A stretch of 64,000 nt of DNA, from NCBI GenBank assembly GCA_027622375.1, contig JAQCAB010000003.1:1-64000 (forward strand), in the 5' to 3' direction. The translations under genes were made by a program, and so were the position numbers. The first letter of the stretch is position 1. Each line of letters opens with the position of its first letter. Below the pieces are notes generated by a model. The model was not told where the DNA came from. It saw only the letters and a list, made by a program, of their open reading frames with translations, and searched no databases. Shown here in pieces: positions 46,864 through 63,741 of this stretch. The DNA comes from Bacteroidota bacterium (GTDB taxonomy: Bacteria; Bacteroidota; Ignavibacteria; UBA10030; UBA8401).

Positions 46864-48975
46864 TTAGGAATTTTCTTGTTTTGTAGTTGATTGTTCCAAC
46901 ATTACCGCTTTTCTACTTAAATCTAATCTACCTTTGTCATCTATTTTTAATAACTTAACTTCAAAGACATCACCTAATTTAACGACATTAGAAACTTTCT
47001 CAACCCGCTTAATATCTAATTGAGAAATATGAACAAGTCCCTCTTTACCAGGTAGAATTTCAACAAAAGCTCCAAACTCAACTATTTTTTTAACTTTTGC
47101 TTTATAAATAGTTCCGACTTCTGGCTGTGCAGTAATTCCTTTAATAAATTGTAATGCTTTATCACTTGCCTCTTTTGCGGATGCAGCAATTGTAATTACT
47201 CCATCATCATCAATTGTGATATCTTCAACACCTGAATCTTTAATTATTTGTCTGATATTTTTTCCACCAGGCCCAATTATAGCACCAATTGAATCGATTG
47301 GAATTTTAATTTTAATAAGTTGAGGAGCGAATGCACTAATTTCAGTTCTTGGTTTATCAATAACAGAATCCATAATTTTTAAAATATGCATTCTCCCATC
47401 TTTAGCTTGATTAATTGCTTTCTCAAATATTTCAATTGAAATTCCTTGAATTTTTATATCCATTTGGAAAGCTGTAATTCCATCCTTGGTTCCTGCAACT
47501 TTAAAATCCATATCACCTAAAAAGTCTTCATTGCCCAAAATATCACTTAAAATAGCAACTCTATCTCCTTCTTTTATTAAACCCATAGCAATTCCAGCTA
47601 CAGCTTTTTTTAGTGGTACTCCAGCATCAAATAAAGCTAATGAGCCAGCACAAACTGTTGCCATTGAAGATGATCCATTTGATTCTAAAATATCCGAAAC
47701 CACTCGAATTGTGTAAGCAAAATCGTTTTCTTGTGATATTAAATTTTTAAGTGATCGTTCTGCTAAATTTCCATGCCCTATTTCTCGTCTTGATGTTCCT
47801 ATTCTTCCAATTTCTCCGGTACTAAATGGTGGGAAATTGTAATGTAACATAAACTTTCGAGGTTCTTCCTCTAACATTCCATCTAGAATTTGCTCATCAC
47901 GTGATGTTCCAAGTGTTGCAGTTGTAAGAGATTGTGTCTCTCCTCTTGTGAATAAAGCTGAACCATGAGTTCTTGGTAGCAATCCAACTTCGACAGAAAT
48001 TGGACGAATATCTTTCAATCCTCTTCCATCTAATCTTTTACCTTCAGATAATATCATTTCACGCATCGCATCATATTCAATATTTGAGATCATTTCTTGA
48101 ACTTTTGGAATCGATTCTTCATTTATTTGCAATGATGAAACTACTTCATTTAGCAGATTATTTTTTGCAGCTGATCTTTCATCCTTTTTAAGAATTGAAT
48201 GAACAATCGACTTCATTTTAGCACGTGCTAAATTATTAACTTGATTTTTTAACTCAACATCTTCTTGAATTGGCACAAATTGAGATTTATTGATATCCAT
48301 TTTGGAAATAAATTCAAGTTGAGCTTTACAAATATCTTTAATTACGGCATGTCCGAATTTCAAGGCATCAAGCATGTCAGTCTCAGAAATCTCTCGAGAC
48401 TCCCCTTCAACCATATTAATTGAGTCGGAAGTTCCGGCAACAATCATATCAATATCACTTTCTTTTAACTCTTGAATTGAAGGATTAACTATAAACTTGC
48501 CATTAATTCTACCAATTCTAACTTCAGCAATTGGACCATTAAAAGGAACACCAGAAACTAATAAACTAGCAGAAGCTGCACACGCACCAATTACATCTGC
48601 ATCATTAAGTTTATCCGATGAATATACACTAACTATTACTTGAAGTTCATTCCTATAACCATCTGGAAATAAAGGTCTTATGGAGCGATCGATTAACCTA
48701 CCACTAAGTACTTCTTTATCTGTAGGACGACCTTCTCTTTTCAAAAATCCACCAGGTATTTTGCCAGCAGCTGCTAATTTTTCTCGATATTCTATTTGTA
48801 ATGGAAAATAATCATAATCTTTTTTTGGTTCGGCAGATACAACTGCAGTTGCCAAAATCATTGTATCTCCAAATCTGACCATTACTGCCCCATTTGATTG
48901 ACGGGCAAATTTACCAGTTTCGAAAGTTAATTGTTGATGACCAATATTAATTGTATGTGATATAATTTTATTCAT
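46864..48975 (-). CDS. pnp: polyribonucleotide nucleotidyltransferase
   Basis: A 703-residue PNPase: two RNase PH domains (first with ETGKFARQSNGAVMVRFGDT; second with RTHGSALFTRGETQSL and EIGHGNLAERSL), a KH domain (IGAIIGPGGKNIRQI) and a C-terminal S1 domain (VKKIVEFGAFVEILPGKEGLVHISQ). It degrades RNA phosphorolytically. The rpsO-pnp order is the same as in many bacteria; the ATG abuts the rpsO stop. Confidence 0.98.
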   Translation of the reverse strand: MNKIISHTINIGHQQLTFETGKFARQSNGAVMVRFGDTMILATAVVSAEPKKDYDYFPLQIEYREKLAAAGKIPGGFLKREGRPTDKEVLSGRLIDRSIRPLFPDGYRNELQVIVSVYSSDKLNDADVIGACAASASLLVSGVPFNGPIAEVRIGRINGKFIVNPSIQELKESDIDMIVAGTSDSINMVEGESREISETDMLDALKFGHAVIKDICKAQLEFISKMDINKSQFVPIQEDVELKNQVNNLARAKMKSIVHSILKKDERSAAKNNLLNEVVSSLQINEESIPKVQEMISNIEYDAMREMILSEGKRLDGRGLKDIRPISVEVGLLPRTHGSALFTRGETQSLTTATLGTSRDEQILDGMLEEEPRKFMLHYNFPPFSTGEIGRIGTSRREIGHGNLAERSLKNLISQENDFAYTIRVVSDILESNGSSSMATVCAGSLALFDAGVPLKKAVAGIAMGLIKEGDRVAILSDILGNEDFLGDMDFKVAGTKDGITAFQMDIKIQGISIEIFEKAINQAKDGRMHILKIMDSVIDKPRTEISAFAPQLIKIKIPIDSIGAIIGPGGKNIRQIIKDSGVEDITIDDDGVITIAASAKEASDKALQFIKGITAQPEVGTIYKAKVKKIVEFGAFVEILPGKEGLVHISQLDIKRVEKVSNVVKLGDVFEVKLLKIDDKGRLDLSRKAVMLEQSTTKQENS

Positions 48976-49239
48976 TTATTTTCTTAATCCTAATTGTTCA
49001 ATAAGTGTGCGATAACGTTCAATATTTTTATCAACTAAATAATCAAGAAGTTTACGCCGTTTACCAACCATTCTTAATAATCCAATTTTTGTGTGATTAT
49101 CTTTTTTATGCTGAGACGCATGTTGCGTTAAAGAATTTATTCTTTCAGTTAGTATGGCAACTTGCACTTCAGGACTTCCTGTATCCTTTACATTTTTACC
49201 ATATTTTTTTATTATCTCGGTTTTATTGATTTCTGACAT
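48976..49239 (-). CDS. rpsO: 30S ribosomal protein S15
   Basis: An 87-residue S15 with [44 protein letters not shown] and the basic helical end. It binds 16S rRNA and often represses its own translation, but no leader structure is obvious here. AAGGA lies 10 nt before the ATG. It precedes pnp directly. Confidence 0.98.
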
Positions 49240-49251
49240 ATTATTTTTTCC

Positions 49252-50208
49252 TTATATTAATTTTTTTTGTGAATATTCGTTTTCTATAATTTTTAAACCT
49301 AATTGTTTATCTTCTTTCATAGCAGTGATTAATTCTGAAATTGAATTGAACTTCTTTTGTTCTCTTATAAACTTTACTAAATAGATTGTAAGTTCTTCAT
49401 TATAAATATCTTGTGAGAAATTAAATAAATAAACTTCTACTACAACATTATGTTCATTATAAAAAGTTGGAAGCGTCCCAACACTTAAAAGTCCAAAATG
49501 AGTTTTATTATTTAACTTAACTTTTACAAAATAAATTCCATTTTTTGGAATCAATTTTTGAGAATCATTTATTTTAATATTTGCTGTCGGGAAACCCAGT
49601 TCTTTTCCACGCTTATCACCATGAATTATTTCTCCTGAAATTTGATAATTTCTCCCAAGTAAATTATTTACAAGATCAATATTTCCATCTCTTAAAGAAT
49701 CTCTAATTAAAGAACTTTTGACAACAAAGTTTTTAAAATAAACTTGATTTACTTGTTCAACTGTAAATCCAAATTTAATACCTGCTTTTGTAAGTGTATC
49801 AAACTTTCCTTCTCGAGATTTACCAAAAGAATGGTCATAACCAATTACAAGATATTTTACTTTACATAACTCAATTAGATATTTTTGCAAGAATTCCTCA
49901 TAATTAAGTTTCGATAACTCAGCCGTAAATGGAATTATGTAAACTTTATCTATTCCATAAAATTCAAATAATTCTAATTTTTCATTTAAAGTAGTAATTA
50001 TAGTTTGACGTGGTTCATTTGGTCTTAAAATATCACGAGGATGAGGGTCAAAAGTTAAAACTACACTTTCAAAGTTATTTTTTTTGGAATATTCTACGAC
50101 GGTATTTAGTAATTTTTGATGACCAAGATGAATACCATCAAAGGTCCCAATTGTAGCAACAGCGTAATTATTATTGGAAATATTTTTTAAATCGTAAATA
50201 ATTTTCAT
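49252..50208 (-). CDS. ribF: bifunctional riboflavin kinase/FAD synthetase
   Basis: A 318-residue RibF. The N-terminal adenylyltransferase domain has TIGTFDGIHLGHQKLL and the C-terminal kinase domain has GEIIHGDKRGKELGFPTANI. It makes FMN and FAD, cofactors used by several enzymes encoded here. It overlaps truB by ATGA and is 12 nt before rpsO. Confidence 0.97.
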   Translation of the reverse strand: MKIIYDLKNISNNNYAVATIGTFDGIHLGHQKLLNTVVEYSKKNNFESVVLTFDPHPRDILRPNEPRQTIITTLNEKLELFEFYGIDKVYIIPFTAELSKLNYEEFLQKYLIELCKVKYLVIGYDHSFGKSREGKFDTLTKAGIKFGFTVEQVNQVYFKNFVVKSSLIRDSLRDGNIDLVNNLLGRNYQISGEIIHGDKRGKELGFPTANIKINDSQKLIPKNGIYFVKVKLNNKTHFGLLSVGTLPTFYNEHNVVVEVYLFNFSQDIYNEELTIYLVKFIREQKKFNSISELITAMKEDKQLGLKIIENEYSQKKLI

Positions 50209-50882
50209 GCTGCAACTTCAGTTAAATTATTATCAAACATAGTTTTAAATTGGATTGAATTTTCAACTTTAAAATTTCCAATTTTAGTTCTTCTTAACTC
50301 TTTTACAAATGCACCACATTTTAAAGATTTTCCAATGTCATTTACAAGTGAACGGATATAAGTTCCTTTTGAACAATTTACTTTAAATGTAGCAATGGGA
50401 GAAATATATTTTAATAATTGTAAATTATAAATTACAATATTTCTAGAAATGATTTGTACATCTTTACCATTTCGAGCATATTTATATAATTGTTTTCCAT
50501 TTATTTTAATAGCTGAATAAATTGGAGGTGCCTGACTTTGGGATCCGATATAATTTTTAAATATTTCTTCAATTAAATCAGTTGTTACATAACTTGAATT
50601 TATATTTTCGATAATTTCAGTTTCAGCATCATAACTAGGTGTAGTTGCACCAAGCTGCATTGTACAAATATATTCTTTATCTAAATTCATAAAGCTAGAT
50701 GACAATTTGGTATTATCACCAGTACAAATAATTAATAATCCGGTTGCAAGTGGATCTAAAGTACCTGCATGCCCTACTTTATTAAAATTGAATTTGTATT
50801 TTATAGTCTTTACAATACTTGTTGAACTTAAGCGATATGGTTTATCTATTAAAATTGTATTATTTGGAGTTAAGAAATTCAT
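50205..50882 (-). CDS. truB: tRNA pseudouridine-55 synthase
   Basis: A 225-residue TruB. The catalytic aspartate is in KVGHAGTLDPLATGLLIICTG, with the N-terminal IDKPYRLSST and the GTYIRSLVNDIGKSLKCGAFVKELRRTKIG motif. It is shorter than the usual roughly 300 residues because the C-terminal PUA domain is missing, as in other Bacteroidota. It overlaps ribF and shares a base with rbfA. Confidence 0.96.
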   Translation of the reverse strand: MNFLTPNNTILIDKPYRLSSTSIVKTIKYKFNFNKVGHAGTLDPLATGLLIICTGDNTKLSSSFMNLDKEYICTMQLGATTPSYDAETEIIENINSSYVTTDLIEEIFKNYIGSQSQAPPIYSAIKINGKQLYKYARNGKDVQIISRNIVIYNLQLLKYISPIATFKVNCSKGTYIRSLVNDIGKSLKCGAFVKELRRTKIGNFKVENSIQFKTMFDNNLTEVAA

Positions 50883-51235
50883 TAATTTGTACTTTCGTCT
50901 TTATGGATTTCTTTAAATATTTTTTCAAGTTTTTCAACTCTATCAAGTGTTTCATCCATAAAAAAATGAATTTCTGGAGTAAACTTAGTTTGAAGTTGTT
51001 TTCCCAAAATATGTCTAATTTCACTTCTTCTTGAATTAACGAATTGTAAAGTTTTTTCTTTTAATTCTTCATTTCCAAAAATGCTAACATATATTTTTGC
51101 ATGTCTTATATCAGGACTTACAATAACATCCAAAACTGTAACAAAACCGTATGGTGGGCTAGCAATTTCACGAGAAAAATAATCTCCAACCCCGTGTCTG
51201 ACTACAGATGCTAATTTTTCAATTCTAACTGACAT
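50882..51235 (-). CDS. rbfA: ribosome-binding factor A
   Basis: A 117-residue RbfA with the KH-like fold: VRIEKLASVVRHGVGDYFSRE, VTVLDVIVSPDIRHAKIYVSIFG and PEIHFFMDETLDRVEKLEKIF. It matures the 30S subunit. It is in the infB operon, sharing one base with infB upstream and truB downstream. Confidence 0.95.
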   Translation of the reverse strand: MSVRIEKLASVVRHGVGDYFSREIASPPYGFVTVLDVIVSPDIRHAKIYVSIFGNEELKEKTLQFVNSRRSEIRHILGKQLQTKFTPEIHFFMDETLDRVEKLEKIFKEIHKDESTN

Positions 51236-53871
51236 TAAAATAATTTTCTTTTTGTTTCTACAATTTGGAAAGATTCAATCGTATCGCCAGTTTTAATATC
51301 ATTAAATCCATCGAGTCCAATTCCACATTCAAATCCTTGTGCAACTTCCCGAACATCATCCTTAAATCTTTTTAATGATAAAATGTGCCCTTCGAACACA
51401 TTAATTCCATCACGAATTAATCTAATTTTATTATTTCTAGTAATTGTTCCATCAGTTACATAACAACCGGCAACATTTCCAACTTTTGGAACTTTAAATA
51501 TATCACGAATTTCAATTGTTGCAGTAACTTCTTCTGAAATTGTTGGCGCATGTAAACCTTCAAGAGCTGATTTAATTTCAGAAATTGCATTATAAATAAT
51601 TGTGTGATAACGAATATCAATTTTATTTTTATCAGCAAGCTTGCGAGCATTTAAATTTGGACGAACATGAAATCCAATTATAATTGCATCAGAAGTTGAT
51701 GCAAGTAAAACATCACTTTCCGAAATTGCACCTACACCTTTATGAATAACTCTAATTTTTACTTCTTGAGTTGAAAGTTTTAGCAGCGAATCTGCCAAAG
51801 CTTCCACTGATCCATCAACATCACCTTTAACTATTATTGCGAGATCACGAATTGAAATACCTTCTTGAATTTGTTTTGAGATATCATCTAAAGTTACAAA
51901 ATGTTTTTGTCTAAAATCTTGTTCACGTTTTGCCTGTTGGCGTCGAATAGAAATATCTCGAGCAACTTTTTCATTTTCCGAAACAATTAATGAATCTCCA
52001 GCAGTAGGCATTCCATCAAATCCTAAAACTTGAACAGGTGTTGAAGGGGTAGCAATAACTATTGATTTGCCTTCACCATCAGTCATTGCTTTGATTTTAC
52101 CACTATAAATTCCAGAAATAAAAGGATCTCCAATTTTTAAAGTTCCTTTTTGAATTAAAACAGTTCCAATAATTCCTTTTCCTTTGTCAAGTTTTGCTTC
52201 AACAATTACTGAACGTGCAAGTCTGTTTGGATTTGCTTTAAGTTCTAAAACTTCAGCTTCTAATAAAATTTTTTCAAGCAACAAGTCAACATTTTTACCA
52301 GTTCTTGCAGAGACCTCAACTGATTGATATTTACCTCCCCATTCTTCAACTAGCACATCACGATCAGCAAGTTGTTGTTTAATTCTTTCTGGATTTGCTT
52401 CAGGTTTATCAATTTTATTTATTGCAATTATAATTGGAACATTAGCTGCTTTTGCGTGACTGATTGCTTCGATAGTTTGCGGCATAACACTATCTTCCGC
52501 CGCAACAACTAAAACAACAATATCAGTTAATTCAGCACCACGTGCGCGCATTGCAGTAAATGCTTCGTGACCGGGCGTATCTAAAAAAGTTATTTTACCT
52601 TTGTTTTCAAGTTCAACTTGATACGCGCCAATATGTTGTGTGATTCCACCAGATTCTCCTTTTGCAACAGTTGTCTTCCTGATATAATCTAATAATGATG
52701 TTTTTCCATGATCAACATGCCCCATTACAGTTACAATTGGTGGTCGAGGTTTTAACGTTTCTTCTGGATCATTTTGATCTTCTATTGATTCATTTGATAA
52801 TTCAGAAACAAATTCAATTTCATATCCAAAATCTGAAGCCACTAAAATTATATTATCTTTTTCTATTCTTTGATTTATAGAAACCATCAAACCTAAATTC
52901 ATACATTTGGCAATAACTTCACCAACTGGCTTATTCATTAAATTTGCAAGATTTCCAACAGTTAAAAATTCTGTTACACGAAGTACTTGTCCTTTTTGTA
53001 AATCTTCTTCAATCTGTTTTTCAATTTCAACTTCGCGTTTTAATCGCTTCTTCTTTCTGTTTGATGCTCTTTGTGCAGGTGTATAAAAATCAGTTGTAGT
53101 TAAAACTGCTTTTATAGCATTTTCTGAATCTTTTTTTACAACATCTGCTTTAAATTTACCTTTTAGAGATTCTTGCGGAGAATAATTTCTATCTTCTTTA
53201 ACTATAAACTTTTGTGGTTTTAAAACTTTCTTTTTTTTCTTTTTCTTATCTACTTCTAATTGCTGTGTTGTTTTATTTTCAGGCACAGCAGGTTTTTTTG
53301 TTTCTAAATCAACTTTACCTTGAATTCTTAATCCATATACTTTTGATTTTGTTGCAGTATCTTTTGCTGAGACATATTCAGCTTGAGGTTTTTTTATTAC
53401 TTCAGAGACTTTTTCATCTTTTTTTATTTCACTTTCAATTATAGATTCTGGCGAAACATTTTTTTTGCTTAAATCAACTTCTAAAGGAATTTCAACAATT
53501 TCTTTTTTATCTGAAATAATTTTTTTATCTATTTTTACTTTAAATGTATTTGCATCAATTGTTTGCCTTCTTGAACGCATTTGTTCAAGTGGTGAAAGTG
53601 GAATTACTGGCTTTACTATTTTTTCTGGTTTTGGGATTTCTTTTTTCTTTTGCTCTTCGAAATGAGCAATTTTTTTAACATGTAATTCGGCACTATGTTT
53701 TTCTCTTTTAAAATGTTTATAAACTTCTTCGACAAGATTATTATCAATAACTGCTAAATGGTTTTTGGTTGCAAAACCACTTTTTGCTAAAAAATCTCTT
53801 ATTGAATCACTAGTTACTTTTAGCTCTTTAGCTAAATTATGAACTCGTATTTTCTTTTCGTTATCATCCAT
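51235..53871 (-). CDS. infB: translation initiation factor IF-2
   Basis: An 878-residue IF-2. The N-terminal 350 residues are highly charged with KKKKKK runs and an IF2_N start ([23 protein letters not shown]). The GTPase carries [30 protein letters not shown] and [10 protein letters not shown], followed by domains II-IV ending at [17 protein letters not shown]. It overlaps nusA by 8 nt. Confidence 0.98.
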
Positions 53872-55171
53872 TGGATTTTATTTCAGAATTATCAGTTTTA
53901 TTCCCAGCTGGTGCATTTCCAGAACCAATATTTTCACTTTCCACATCAGCATTATCATATTCAGTTTTAATCATCTCAACAATTTTTAATAATTCTTCAC
54001 GATCAACATCAAGATCTTTTGCAAGTTTGTTAAAATTAGTTTCGATAATTATTTTTGCGGAATTATATCCTTTTTCAATAAATAAATTTAACATTTCGTC
54101 GCCAAGTTCATCTTTAAATTCTTCAAGTTCAATATCATATTCTGCAGTTTCTTTCATAATCTGAATATCAAAACCTGTTAATTTTGTAGCAAGTCTAATA
54201 TTTTGACCACCTTTACCGATAGCAAGTGAAGCTTGTTCATCAGAAACCAAAACTAAAAAACTTTGAGATGGCTCATCAAAATCAACTTTTTTTAATTTTG
54301 CTGGAGCAAGTGCTCTTGCAATAAAAAGAAGTGGATCAGAATTATAATTTATAACATCAATATTTTCATTATTCAATTCACGAACAATTGTATGGATTCT
54401 GACACCCTTCATTCCAACACATGCACCGACTGCGTCGATTCTATCATCTTGTGATTCGACTGCAATTTTTGCTCTTTCACCTGGATCGCGGGCAACTGCT
54501 TTAATTTGAATTAAGCCATCATAAACTTCTGGAATTTCAAGTTCAAACAATCGCTCCATAAATTTATTATCCGTTCTTGAAACAATTACATACGGATTAC
54601 CACTTGTTTTTCTGACTTCTTTTACAACTGCCCGAATTGTATCTCCCTTTTTAAATCTTTCACCAGGGATTTGTTCACTTTTTGGTAAAATCAATTCATT
54701 TTTATTATGAATGATAAAAAGATCGTTGTTGCGTAATTGATAAACTTCGCCAACAACTATATCTCCCATCATTGCATTGTATTCAGTAAAGATTAAATCT
54801 TTTTCAATATCTTTAACACGCTGAATAAAATTTTGTTTTGCCATAACAACTGAACGGCGACCAAAATCTTTTAAGTGAAGAATTTCAACACAATCTTCAC
54901 CAACTTCTAAATTTTCGCCAGTTAATTCTTTTGCAGTTTTTTTATCAACTTCAAGCGCAGAGTTAGCAACTACTTCTACGACTGCTCGTTCCAAATAAAA
55001 CTCGATATCACCTTTATCCATATTTAAAACGACTTCAAATTTTGCATCCATTCCATATTTTTTCTTTAACATCATACCGAAAACCTCTTCCAAGATATTT
55101 ATTAACACATCTCGATCGATATTTCTTTCACGCGATAATTGCGTAAATGAGTCTACAATTTCATGATTCAT
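53864..55171 (-). CDS. nusA: transcription termination/antitermination protein NusA
   Basis: A 435-residue NusA: N-terminal RNA polymerase-binding domain, S1 domain (GDIVVGEVYQLRNNDLFIIH) and two KH domains (GERAKIAVESQDDRIDAVGACVGMKGVRI, ASLAIGKGGQNIRLAT), then one short helical region. It is shorter than the 495 residues of E. coli because one of the C-terminal acidic repeats appears absent. It is 15 nt after rimP and overlaps infB. Confidence 0.97.
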   Translation of the reverse strand: MNHEIVDSFTQLSRERNIDRDVLINILEEVFGMMLKKKYGMDAKFEVVLNMDKGDIEFYLERAVVEVVANSALEVDKKTAKELTGENLEVGEDCVEILHLKDFGRRSVVMAKQNFIQRVKDIEKDLIFTEYNAMMGDIVVGEVYQLRNNDLFIIHNKNELILPKSEQIPGERFKKGDTIRAVVKEVRKTSGNPYVIVSRTDNKFMERLFELEIPEVYDGLIQIKAVARDPGERAKIAVESQDDRIDAVGACVGMKGVRIHTIVRELNNENIDVINYNSDPLLFIARALAPAKLKKVDFDEPSQSFLVLVSDEQASLAIGKGGQNIRLATKLTGFDIQIMKETAEYDIELEEFKDELGDEMLNLFIEKGYNSAKIIIETNFNKLAKDLDVDREELLKIVEMIKTEYDNADVESENIGSGNAPAGNKTDNSEIKSNG

Positions 55172-55186
55172 AATTTTACTCCAATA

Positions 55187-55636
55187 TTACTTCTTAATTT
55201 TTGTTTGTATAATTGCTGATTTTATTTTTGGTAATTCTATTTCTAATTGCGAATTATTTTTTTCTAATATTATATTATTTTCTTTTACGTCTTTTATTTC
55301 ACCAATTTCAATTTTCTCAAGTTTATATTCTTCAAAGCTAATTTTTATATTTTTTCCAATATGTCTTTTATATTGTCGAATATCTTTTAATGGTTTATCT
55401 AATCCTGGCGACGAAACTTCTAATCTATATTGCCAAGGATAATTTTTATTCAAAACACTTTGAATTTCAATTCCGATTTTTGAACATTCATCAATTGTTA
55501 TTCCTTTTTCAGTATCAATATAAACTTCAATTACACGATAACTTTTATCACCACGAATTATTAAATCAACTAAAAAATAGTCAGTTTCTGAAATTAGTTT
55601 TTCAATTTCTATTTTCAACTCATCAATTAAAGTCAT
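55187..55636 (-). CDS. rimP: ribosome maturation factor RimP
   Basis: A 149-residue RimP with GDKSYRVIEVYIDTEKGITIDECSKIGIEIQSVL and VSSPGLDKPLKDIRQYKRHIGKNIKI. It is the first gene of rimP-nusA-infB-rbfA-truB-ribF-rpsO-pnp. A GGAG stands 4 nt before its ATG, directly after a hairpin and U-tract (55645-55672), with a predicted promoter behind these. Confidence 0.96.
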   Translation of the reverse strand: MTLIDELKIEIEKLISETDYFLVDLIIRGDKSYRVIEVYIDTEKGITIDECSKIGIEIQSVLNKNYPWQYRLEVSSPGLDKPLKDIRQYKRHIGKNIKISFEEYKLEKIEIGEIKDVKENNIILEKNNSQLEIELPKIKSAIIQTKIKK

Positions 55637-55644
55637 AAAACTCC

Positions 55645-55672
55645 AAAAAAAAATCCCGCAAGCGCGAGATTT
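55645..55672 (-). terminator. hairpin plus U-tract before rimP (terminator or leader hairpin)
   Basis: On the minus strand AAATCTCGC and GCGGGATTT pair with one G-U wobble (55672-55664 with 55659-55651) around a GCTT loop, followed by nine Ts (55653-55645). It meets the form of a Rho-independent terminator for the outer-membrane protein gene whose stop is 49 nt upstream. A predicted promoter also lies between that stop and this hairpin, so it may instead be the 5' end of the rimP mRNA. Confidence 0.8.
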
Positions 55673-55677
55673 ATGAA

Positions 55678-55708
55678 CAAATATAAGTTAGTTTTGAGGT
55701 AGAAGCAA
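55678..55708 (-). promoter_or_regulatory. predicted rimP-nusA-infB operon promoter
   Basis: TTG (55708-55706), 20 nt, TATATTTG (55685-55678) on the minus strand, identical in geometry and -10 box to the yqeY site. The predicted start (near 55673) coincides with the first bases of the hairpin at 55672-55651, so the hairpin would lie at the extreme 5' end of the transcript. Confidence 0.6.
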
Positions 55709-55720
55709 GTAAGATATTTC

Positions 55721-58700
55721 TTAAAACATCATTCTAACCTCAATTTTTGCAGAATGGATTGGTTTATTGGAGTAAAAAGTATTTATTCTTCCTAAATAAT
55801 ATAAGCTAAAAACTAAATTTGATTCTAATCTTGTTTCAGTTGATAAATTCATAAAATAAGTTTTACCAATTTGTTTACCTTGAAGTAAATAAAATTCGTT
55901 TAAATAGTTTTTTAATAAGGAATTTATTTTACCTTCTTCTCTTATTATCTCAAATCGGAACTGACCTGCCGAAAATATTTTACTAATTAATCTTAATGAT
56001 TGCAAGTTGGTTTCGCTTTCAACAACATTATTGTAATTTGCTTTATCACTTCCAAATCCATTTTCCAATTTAAACACAATTTCAATATCCTGAATTGGTC
56101 TATATGAAATTTCAGAAAGAATATTTGATAAATCAATATTACGATTTTTATCATTTACAATTTTATAATTAGCTTTAACTAATTTTGATGATACTTCAAT
56201 ATTAAGGGCAATATCCTTTAATAACTGAATTTGAGTTCGTAAAGAATGTTCATTCATAAAATTAATTTCATTTGATTCTAAATATGTTGTAACTCCTTCC
56301 CGATATAAAAATCTGTATCGCATATTAAAATCACGATTATTTTCTTTATAAAATATATTCTGTTGAGCAAATAAATTTGAGTGCAAAACGTTATCAGTAT
56401 TAACAGCTGATTTAAAATAATTTACGAATTGAGTTGGCTTCCCTTTTCGTTCAACTTTCAATAATAATTCATGCGATAAATTATTTAGAAATGAGATTGA
56501 TGACTCTGTATTGTTAATCAACTCATTAAATCTAATTTTAGATCGCCATGATAATTTTGTATTATTTATTTTATCATATTTGTCAGTTGGTAGAATTATT
56601 AAATTATAATTTCCTTCAAAGCGAGTTGGTTCAAAATCTTGTTCATTTTCATAATCAACTACATTATTTTTATTCCCATCAATCCATCTATATTTTCCTT
56701 CGCCAACTTTGACTTCAATAAATCTTTTCTCAAAATTTGCTCCCTTCTCTTGCGAATTATCACCATATAAATCTAAATCAATCGCTTGTAATAACTTAAT
56801 CCGAGATTGCATCCGATAAAACAAAATGTTTTCATCTGTTAATGATGTCAAAATATTTTTATAATAATTGACTTGCCGATAAGAAGAATTTATTTCAGTT
56901 CTGCTTTGTTTACCTGAATAAACAAAATTAAGCTGCGATTTATTTATTATTGAATATTTATCAAATACCCCATTATGATTTTTTTTGTCTTCAAAATATT
57001 CATGACTTATAGCTGAAGTTATGTTCTCATTGAAATTAAAATTTATAGTTGGAATATATTTTTGGAATGAATAACTACCATTCAATAGTGAATCCGTTAA
57101 CTCATTTTTTACTTTGTTTAGTTCTTCTCTATAACTAAATGTTGGATTTATGAAGTATATTTTGTCTCCAATAATAAATTCTCTTTGCTCAGTTTGAGTT
57201 GCACCTGTCGAATTATTACTAACAGTTTTATTAAATAAAAATGAAGCTTTTGGTAAATAATCTTCACTAATTATAAATGTAAGTTGGTTATAATTCGATT
57301 TTGTTGTTGATGATACGTTATTGATTCCATAATTATATTTCAGTTTTGTTGAATCATAAAGTGAATAAATAATATTGAATTCGTTTTTTGTATAACCACC
57401 TCCAGAAGATATATTCCATTTTCTATTAAAATCTACTTCATCAATTCTATCAAATTCATTAAAATTTTTATTTTTGATAGTTCCTGACACATTAAATGAT
57501 AGTTTTCCTAAATTTTTATCATTTATTTTAATTATGTCAGATTCTGTTTTTCCACTATAAGAAAAATAGCTTCCTTCATTTCCCGTTAAATCCTTTAAAG
57601 TATTTTCATTAAATCTAGTTCCTTGAAAATTAAAACCTAAATCTGTTTTATCATTTATTTTATAAATTGATTGAATTGCTAACAATTCATTTTTTTCTGG
57701 TTTCGGGATTAATATTAAAGGAAGATAACTTCCTTTTTTAATCCCAATAAATTTAAATTCACTGCTACTTACTTTCTCATAATCTCCTTGAAAATATCCA
57801 ATAAATGTAAATTTAATGGAATAAATTGATTCAGTACTGTTTCGTAAAAAAGAATAATAAATAAAATTATTATTTTCGATAATAGTATCTTTTTTAACAT
57901 AATCCCCTTTACCTATTCCAGTAATTGAATCTCGACCTACTAACAAAACTCCACTTTTTCCAATTAAGGAATCTGAACTTGATCGCAAAATGTTTTTATC
58001 GTCTTCTGACAAAATAAAATCTGTAGTTACTTCAATGTCATCCACTTCACGATGATATGAAGTATTAAATGTAATTGAATTTGATAAATTTGATTCAATA
58101 GTTAAACCAGAAAGTGATCTCGCATAATTTCTTTCACTATATTCAAAATCAATTACAATTCTTGAATAACTTGTTACAATATTTTTTGAGCTGAAAGTTA
58201 ACTCTCCAGTTGAATATTCAATAATGTAATCATTTTGTTCACCTCGGTTTAACAATAAACCATCCAGATAAACTTTTTCAGTCCCAGCAATTATAATGAT
58301 ATATTTTAAATTATTTTTTCCATAAAGTTTATATGGACCTTGAATTCCATCAATTGGAGAAATAATATTTGAAGTATAAACTCCGCGATTAACAGCAATA
58401 ATTCCTTTTGCATTTGTCCTTTCAAAAACATTTTGGTATTCAATTAACGCACCTTGAACTTTTCGATTTAAATTATTTTCAGGACTTAATTTTGCGGTGT
58501 ATTGTAAATCTCCGAAAGTAGTTCTGTACTTTGGACCTTTTACTGAAATAAAAACATTGTCAATTTCTCGTAATGTTTGTGTGTTGCCTTGAGGTTGAAT
58601 TGGAATATTTTGATCGGTTAATGATGCTATCACATCAACATCTTTTGAAAGTTTTCCTGATAAATCTAATCTAAAAGCTGAGTTTAAAGAAAAATCTGTA

Positions 58701-58954
58701 TTTGATGCGATTGAAATTCCCCTAACAATCATTCCTCTCTTAACTAATTTATCTTCACTTAATTGTTTAGAAGTTTTATTTACTTCTCTAAATTGAAGAG
58801 AATTATTTTTTAGAGAATCAATTGTATGATGAAAATATATTTTTTTTAAGTGAAAACCTATTTTGACAGTATCATCACTTTGAGAAAATGATATTGAGAA
58901 AATAAATAATAAAAGTAAATAGATTTTTGGTATAAGAAAATTAGTTCGTTGCAA
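55721..58954 (-). CDS. large outer-membrane protein, predicted beta-barrel, unknown function
   Basis: A 1077-residue protein with a signal peptide (about 1-24, IYLLLLFIFSISFSQS) and a terminal phenylalanine (EVRMMF), a mark of outer-membrane barrels. The N-terminal part has VASLTDQNIPIQPQGNTQ-type sequence (about 108-125) and a repeated-type motif KVYLDGLLLNRGEQNDYIIEYSTGELTFSSKNIV (about 235-270) that I recall from uncharacterised Ignavibacteria and Chlorobi proteins. The remainder is alternating hydrophobic strands, ending in likely barrel strands. The start is TTG with no visible Shine-Dalgarno, and no ATG fits as well. I do not assign a function. Confidence 0.85.
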   Translation of the reverse strand: MQRTNFLIPKIYLLLLFIFSISFSQSDDTVKIGFHLKKIYFHHTIDSLKNNSLQFREVNKTSKQLSEDKLVKRGMIVRGISIASNTDFSLNSAFRLDLSGKLSKDVDVIASLTDQNIPIQPQGNTQTLREIDNVFISVKGPKYRTTFGDLQYTAKLSPENNLNRKVQGALIEYQNVFERTNAKGIIAVNRGVYTSNIISPIDGIQGPYKLYGKNNLKYIIIIAGTEKVYLDGLLLNRGEQNDYIIEYSTGELTFSSKNIVTSYSRIVIDFEYSERNYARSLSGLTIESNLSNSITFNTSYHREVDDIEVTTDFILSEDDKNILRSSSDSLIGKSGVLLVGRDSITGIGKGDYVKKDTIIENNNFIYYSFLRNSTESIYSIKFTFIGYFQGDYEKVSSSEFKFIGIKKGSYLPLILIPKPEKNELLAIQSIYKINDKTDLGFNFQGTRFNENTLKDLTGNEGSYFSYSGKTESDIIKINDKNLGKLSFNVSGTIKNKNFNEFDRIDEVDFNRKWNISSGGGYTKNEFNIIYSLYDSTKLKYNYGINNVSSTTKSNYNQLTFIISEDYLPKASFLFNKTVSNNSTGATQTEQREFIIGDKIYFINPTFSYREELNKVKNELTDSLLNGSYSFQKYIPTINFNFNENITSAISHEYFEDKKNHNGVFDKYSIINKSQLNFVYSGKQSRTEINSSYRQVNYYKNILTSLTDENILFYRMQSRIKLLQAIDLDLYGDNSQEKGANFEKRFIEVKVGEGKYRWIDGNKNNVVDYENEQDFEPTRFEGNYNLIILPTDKYDKINNTKLSWRSKIRFNELINNTESSISFLNNLSHELLLKVERKGKPTQFVNYFKSAVNTDNVLHSNLFAQQNIFYKENNRDFNMRYRFLYREGVTTYLESNEINFMNEHSLRTQIQLLKDIALNIEVSSKLVKANYKIVNDKNRNIDLSNILSEISYRPIQDIEIVFKLENGFGSDKANYNNVVESETNLQSLRLISKIFSAGQFRFEIIREEGKINSLLKNYLNEFYLLQGKQIGKTYFMNLSTETRLESNLVFSLYYLGRINTFYSNKPIHSAKIEVRMMF

Positions 58955-59006: not shown

Positions 59007-59091
59007 TACCAAAAGTCGGACTCGAACCGACACTCCTTTAAAGGGAACTGGATTTTGAGTCCAGCGCGTCTACCAATTCCGCCATTTTGGC
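59007..59091 (-). tRNA. tRNA-Leu (anticodon CAA)
   Basis: The minus strand folds as a class II tRNA of 85 nt. The acceptor arm pairs GCCAAAA with TTTTGGT and the discriminator A is at 59007. The D-arm contains GGTAGACGC, the anticodon stem CTGGA/TCCAG encloses CTCAAAA (anticodon CAA, reading UUG), a variable arm follows, and the T-arm has GGTTCGAGTCC. CCA is not encoded. Confidence 0.97.
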
Positions 59092-63715: not shown

Positions 63716-63741
63716 CTAAAAAGCACCATTTAAGGTGCTTT
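63716..63741 (-). terminator. Rho-independent terminator
   Basis: On the minus strand AAAGCACC and GGTGCTTT (63741-63734 and 63727-63720) form a perfect 8-bp stem around a 6-nt TTAAAT loop, followed by TTTTTAGTTTT (63722-63712 region). It lies 27 nt after the stop of the gene at the right edge and 9 nt before ygfZ. Confidence 0.75.

Follow-up and report, generated by a model that had tools for sequence, protein, structure and literature searches.

A conserved promoter-proximal hairpin with a T-tract in the rimP-nusA-infB leader of an Ignavibacteria lineage, a probable attenuator

The window analysed here is a 64,000-nucleotide (nt) stretch of the genome of an uncultured Bacteroidota bacterium of the Ignavibacteria (GCA_027622375.1, contig JAQCAB010000003.1), and the element in question is a terminator-like hairpin with a T-tract that stands in front of rimP on the minus strand. 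The first gene of the cluster, rimP (55187-55636; Pfam RimP_N and DUF150_C), is followed on the same strand by nusA (53864-55171; Pfam NusA_N and KH_5), which encodes the proposed feedback regulator, and by the co-directional and tightly spaced infB, rbfA, truB, ribF, rpsO and pnp (46864-53871; assigned with Pfam). The gene spacing suggests that rimP-nusA-infB-rbfA-truB-ribF-rpsO-pnp constitute one operon. The gap scanned on the minus strand lies between the stop codon (55721) of the upstream gene and the ATG of rimP (55636). It begins with a −35-like TTGCTT (55708-55703), recognised by inspection and by its conservation in the bacterial order to which the genome belongs. A 17-bp spacer separates it from the −10 element TATATTTG (55685-55678), assigned by consensus match and conservation, which additionally matches the TAnnTTTG −7 consensus of the Bacteroidetes sigma-ABfr as that consensus is quoted in PMC7366714. 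The hairpin AAATCTCGC-GCTT-GCGGGATTT (55672-55651) comprises nine pairs, with arms at 55672-55664 and 55659-55651, a GCTT loop, a 5' arm of the CCC/CTC type and a stem core that reads CTCGC..GCGGG. The tract of nine Ts (55653-55645), the first three of which are paired within the stem, is followed by a Shine-Dalgarno-like GGAG (55644-55641), noticed by eye 4 nt 5' of the ATG; the distance from the hairpin to rimP is 14 nt. Judged from the position of the −10 element, transcription is predicted to start at about 55674-55671, which would place the beginning of the hairpin at about +2. The original prediction had located the hairpin, the tract of nine Ts and the promoter-like site exactly, as a check on the minus strand showed.

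A terminator scan recovered the hairpin with nine pairs, and in the surrounding 10-kb stretch it found seven sites resembling terminators, where shuffles gave 2.6 ± 1.5. The fold has an energy of −10.6 kcal/mol (z −2.52), and 5 of 200 shuffled sequences were equally stable, so that, judged on the window sequence alone, the stability of the hairpin is moderately unusual. The case for this hairpin rests on comparison. As a separate matter, the hairpin was considered as a dispersed repeat or as a genome-wide favourite terminator sequence, which was rejected for the window genome: a stem pattern of the YCGC..GCGR form had no second copy in the 1.73-Mb genome (48 contigs) when up to two mismatches were allowed.

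The comparison was based on 98 genomes of the order. rimP was matched in 83 of them, and one locus with 7 nt of upstream sequence (L086) was set aside, which left 82 usable loci. A hairpin scoring at least 20 within 150 nt upstream of rimP was present in 81 of the 82 loci, compared with 79 of 1640 shuffles. At the only locus missed by the scan (L066), the hairpin was seen by inspection 142 nt 5' of a start codon chosen beside an N gap, and at two loci (L038 and L052), where another hairpin had been assigned first, the leader hairpin is present by pattern. In 81 of 81 leaders the stem has CCC/CTC in its 5' arm and GGG/GAG in its 3' arm, as counted with a script that considered CCC/CTC 5'-arm hairpins only, of which each locus had one. 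A strict promoter of the TTGC-17-TATATT type, with the spacer fixed at 17 and at least three of four letters of TTGC, stands 5' of the hairpin at 70 of the 79 loci with sufficient upstream DNA (exact TTGC in 66), compared with 58 of 2370 shuffles. The −10 element and the hairpin are separated by a median of 15 nt (range 5-28 nt), and this gap is shortest in the window genome and its genus mate G001 (7 and 5 nt). With a start predicted about 7 nt past the −10 element, the hairpin would begin at about 0 to +12 in most genomes of the order, and rimP starts 7-55 nt 3' of it (79 usable loci). The order of promoter, hairpin, U-tract and rimP is thus deeply conserved throughout the order. The original prediction had proposed looking for this arrangement in related genomes, and it was found there, with the hairpin at 82 of 82 usable loci and the promoter at 70 of 79.

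The stem is conserved as a structure. In an alignment of 54 distinct leaders of the order, all with a C-rich 5' arm, 92.6% of the cells of the nine pairs are paired, and changes on both sides of a pair occur in 95 cells, compared with 44.7 in shuffles, none of 500 of which reached this value. Sliding the partner by one to three columns cuts the pairing to 23-52%. One stem pair is GC in 27 sequences and UA in the other 27, and the innermost pair is frequently open (unpaired in 30 of 54). Four T columns of the tract are invariant across the 54 sequences, and this bears on one of the three readings suggested originally, in which the hairpin would be a 5' cap-like stabiliser or a translation element of the rimP mRNA that acts without termination. 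The hairpin would indeed occupy the extreme 5' end of the predicted mRNA, with rimP only a short way behind. However, a stabiliser needs no T-run, so the kept tract counts against it, and RNA sequencing (RNA-seq) in Streptococcus agalactiae, as reported in PMC4448216, showed a short, terminated transcript at the corresponding position. The stabiliser is therefore considered unlikely.

Another of the suggested readings assigns the hairpin to the 1077-aa gene upstream (55721-58954, minus strand; aa, amino acids), as a plain 3' terminator overlapped by the rimP promoter. This gene gave no Pfam match, and its description as outer-membrane-type is the label used in the original prediction. Its stop codon lies 48 nt 5' of the hairpin, and the stem core begins 52 nt past the stop, which is a usual spacing for a terminator; a similar intergenic hairpin (63720-63741) stands in the window 26 nt after another stop codon. 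Across the order, however, the hairpin outlasts the neighbour. The upstream gene is a long outer-membrane-type gene in family f1, a LOG-type (Lysine_decarbox) gene in f5, and a thioesterase or a beta-eliminating lyase in the representatives of f2, f4 and f6, and the hairpin is kept beside these lysine decarboxylase-like, thioesterase and lyase genes as well as beside a transporter gene. It also persists at loci whose closest feature found upstream is divergent, namely two tRNA-Ser (G002 and G003) and a GDPD gene (G092). Its core lies 9-27 nt past the −10 element (n=69, standard deviation (sd) 3.4) but 31-356 nt past the upstream stop (n=73, sd 64.4), hence it is downstream of the promoter and phased to it. 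Both the promoter phasing and the persistence beside different or divergent neighbours indicate that the hairpin belongs to the rimP transcript and is not merely an upstream terminator. Absence of the hairpin from loci with a different upstream gene, which had been named as the outcome that would speak against a leader element, was looked for, and the hairpin proved to be conserved at such loci. As the sole role of the hairpin, termination of the outer-membrane gene thus appears improbable; as an additional role it may still apply, and the hairpin may also stop upstream transcripts, in the window genome included. Further upstream in the window, a tRNA-Leu (59007-59091) and a tmRNA (RF00023; 60919-61274) run in the same direction.

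The combination of promoter and hairpin is specific in its place before rimP, and comparable hairpins elsewhere in the genomes of the order are mostly ordinary 3' terminators. In a scan of 80 named records, covering the sequence surrounding nusA only, 152 promoter-like sites were found; a hairpin followed within 25 nt at 59 of them, and all 59 were at rimP. A whole-genome search for the promoter-CCC..GGG-T pattern gave 78 matches in 64 of the 98 genomes and none in the reversed control; it misses the leader of the window itself, where the 5' arm reads CTC. Of the 78 matches, 63 were judged to be rimP leaders, including one at the end of a contig (G076:C121); the other 15 lay in other places, and 14 of these were inspected. 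This distribution also bears on a further alternative, that promoter and hairpin form a stand-alone small RNA (sRNA) while rimP is transcribed from elsewhere. A promoter and a terminator about 30 nt apart are arranged like those of a tiny RNA gene, and a ProQ-associated sRNA derived from a rimP leader is mentioned in PMC5391140. Nevertheless, no conserved sequence exists beyond the terminator, and the place before rimP is fixed in every usable genome of the order, which makes a separate sRNA gene highly improbable.

Several of the other matches lie before secG. Five secG candidates were tested with Pfam, and four of them (L315, L316, L325 and L327) match SecG and show a promoter followed directly by a small CCC..GGG-type hairpin and a T-run before the ATG; L317, L318 and L319 are secG-like and unverified, L319 being the candidate that gave no Pfam match. 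These leaders are a possible second promoter-proximal attenuator. In a control within the family of the window genome, the secG hairpin was sporadic (2 of 19 readable loci), compared with 18 of 18 for rimP. Single promoter-plus-hairpin layouts were seen before penicillin amidase genes, a TPR gene, a glutamyl-type tRNA synthetase gene and an anti-sigma gene (L320, L321, L323, L324 and L328).

Taken together, the hairpin and its U-tract are, with good confidence, a conserved regulatory leader terminator, that is, a premature terminator that would attenuate rimP-nusA-infB. Of the three readings offered by the original prediction, the attenuator is the best supported, by conserved position, promoter phasing, independence of the neighbour, covariation, the kept T-run and published parallels. 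Transcription from the TTGC-17-TATATT promoter would start at about 55672, and the strong hairpin and U-tract would be transcribed first. A share of RNA polymerase would stop about 25-30 nt past the start and release a tiny RNA, and the remaining polymerase would continue into rimP. The RNA 5' of the hairpin would be too short to hold an antiterminator stem, and control should accordingly act on the polymerase or on the hairpin itself. NusA strengthens intrinsic terminators. As the product of the second gene, NusA may raise the early stopping, and a high level of NusA would then lower the expression of the operon in a negative feedback; NusA is somewhat favoured as the signal for this attenuation. 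Since relatives retain the arrangement, a feedback brake of the kind already described in other bacteria is probable. Early termination so near the start is not far-fetched, because RNA-seq in S. agalactiae places termination in the same operon 31 nt past the start.

Several points weigh against the attenuator reading. The start site, termination and read-through are predictions from sequence for the whole order. Nine of the 79 loci lack the strict promoter; several of these have a weaker −10 element and others look different. The upstream genes are mostly co-directional, so the hairpin may end their transcripts too. Moreover, the model R1, built from the leaders, matches other terminators as well, and in G001, G002, G004, G017 and G044 the rimP leader is outscored by another site; R1 by itself is unspecific. 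Similar terminators of the CCCGC..GCGGG form are frequent in family f1. Of 20 further regions around R1 matches, most look like 3' terminators by position: 17 had no promoter-like match, two (L207 and L209) had a weak one, and one (L224) was a copy of a rimP leader. This copy (G076:C121:11556-11608) and L025 represent a single rimP leader present on two contigs of the same assembly, in one case close to the contig end, and an assembly split or a strain variant is the probable cause.

The leader extends through the wider phylum, where the polarity of the stem changes. Records of Stygiobacter and Melioribacter carry TTGC/TTTG-type promoters and a TCGCCCC..GGGCGA hairpin. The phylum sample comprised 118 genomes, seven of them from the order itself; upstream DNA was read for 82 of the other 111, and one locus without a rimP match (L251) was dropped, leaving 81. 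A first scan, restricted to short loops, passed over big-loop or mismatched stems outside the class of the order. In the rescan, a hairpin scoring at least 20 was present at 72 of the 81 loci, compared with 72 of 1620 shuffles, and eight of the remaining nine loci show a hairpin in the short-loop scan, the shuffle control applying to the rescan only. Some rimP leaders of other Bacteroidota classes (L258-L314) have quite different stems. The 5' arm carries CCC in families f1, f2, f4-f7 and f10 and GGG in most other Bacteroidota families, as in the published motif (for example GAGGGGAC..GTCCCCTC in f22); the stem of f24 is GTGAG..CTCAC, and the polarity labels of f25, f33 and f23 are doubtful. 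In a midpoint-rooted NusA tree of 33 rows, a single branch (support 94/89) separates 23 CCC rows on one side from nine GGG rows on the other, and thus a single change of polarity suffices, although the tree is weak in two respects, namely the length of the f10 branch and the midpoint rooting. A tentative explanation, which we regard as possible but rather doubtful, is that the NusA feedback responds to the form of a promoter-proximal terminator and to its position, and not to its sequence, and that the stem was inverted once in the Ignavibacteria line (GGG..CCC to CCC..GGG) while its place, promoter spacing and presumed control were kept. If true, this would be a natural swap experiment against the recognition of a GGGc/gCCC motif, and the inverted stem would separate recognition of sequence from recognition of a terminator as such, which are joined in the published motif.

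The attenuation device at rimP itself is already known (PMC2965389; PMC4448216). No description of this leader in Bacteroidota or Ignavibacteria was found in the literature searched, subscription papers and supplements being outside its scope, and within that literature the spread of the leader through Bacteroidota and the one stem inversion look new. Naville and Gautheret (2010, PMC2965389) refer to the rimP-leader as the most ubiquitous attenuator; the word "Bacteroid" is absent from the main text of that paper, its supplement lying outside the scope. As described there, it is a short terminator 5' of rimP-nusA-infB, 4-130 nt from the gene, and the window leader likewise lies within this distance of a first gene that is accompanied by nusA and infB. 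The published leader has no visible antiterminator and NusA was proposed as its regulator; in the leaders of the order, about 0-12 nt are predicted before the hairpin in most loci. The published stem, GGGc(..)gCCC, has a G-rich 5' arm, whereas the window has CTCGC..GCGGG. The Rfam family RF01770 (rimP) shares the gene context, but none of the 98 genomes of the order exceeded its cut-off, and the weaker matches in six genomes were not at rimP loci; among 14 control genomes, a match was obtained in E. coli only. At the leader site, Rfam gave no match at gathering score in the window and none at E≤1 in 12 loci of the order. In the gbs0413-gbs0418 operon (rimP-nusA-infB) of S. agalactiae, as reported in PMC4448216, a short and a long RNA share one start, and NusA feedback was proposed. 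It differs in belonging to another phylum and in that termination was seen there by RNA-seq and is predicted here. In the ylxS/nusA leader of Bacillus subtilis, NusA-stimulated intrinsic termination leads to autoregulation, according to PMC12288461; that leader is given as about 180 nt long (PMC2965389), whereas the hairpin described here would begin about at the start site. According to PMC6511841, NusA plays a part in its own expression in E. coli. A leader as short as the present one, if real, would provide a clean model for termination in early elongation. Judged by stem motif and by RF01770, it is not a member of the rimP-leader type; by its place and presumed action, it would work like one. 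NusA and IF2 are core factors, and phyla far apart from one another seem to have the same early-stop device in the operon that encodes both.
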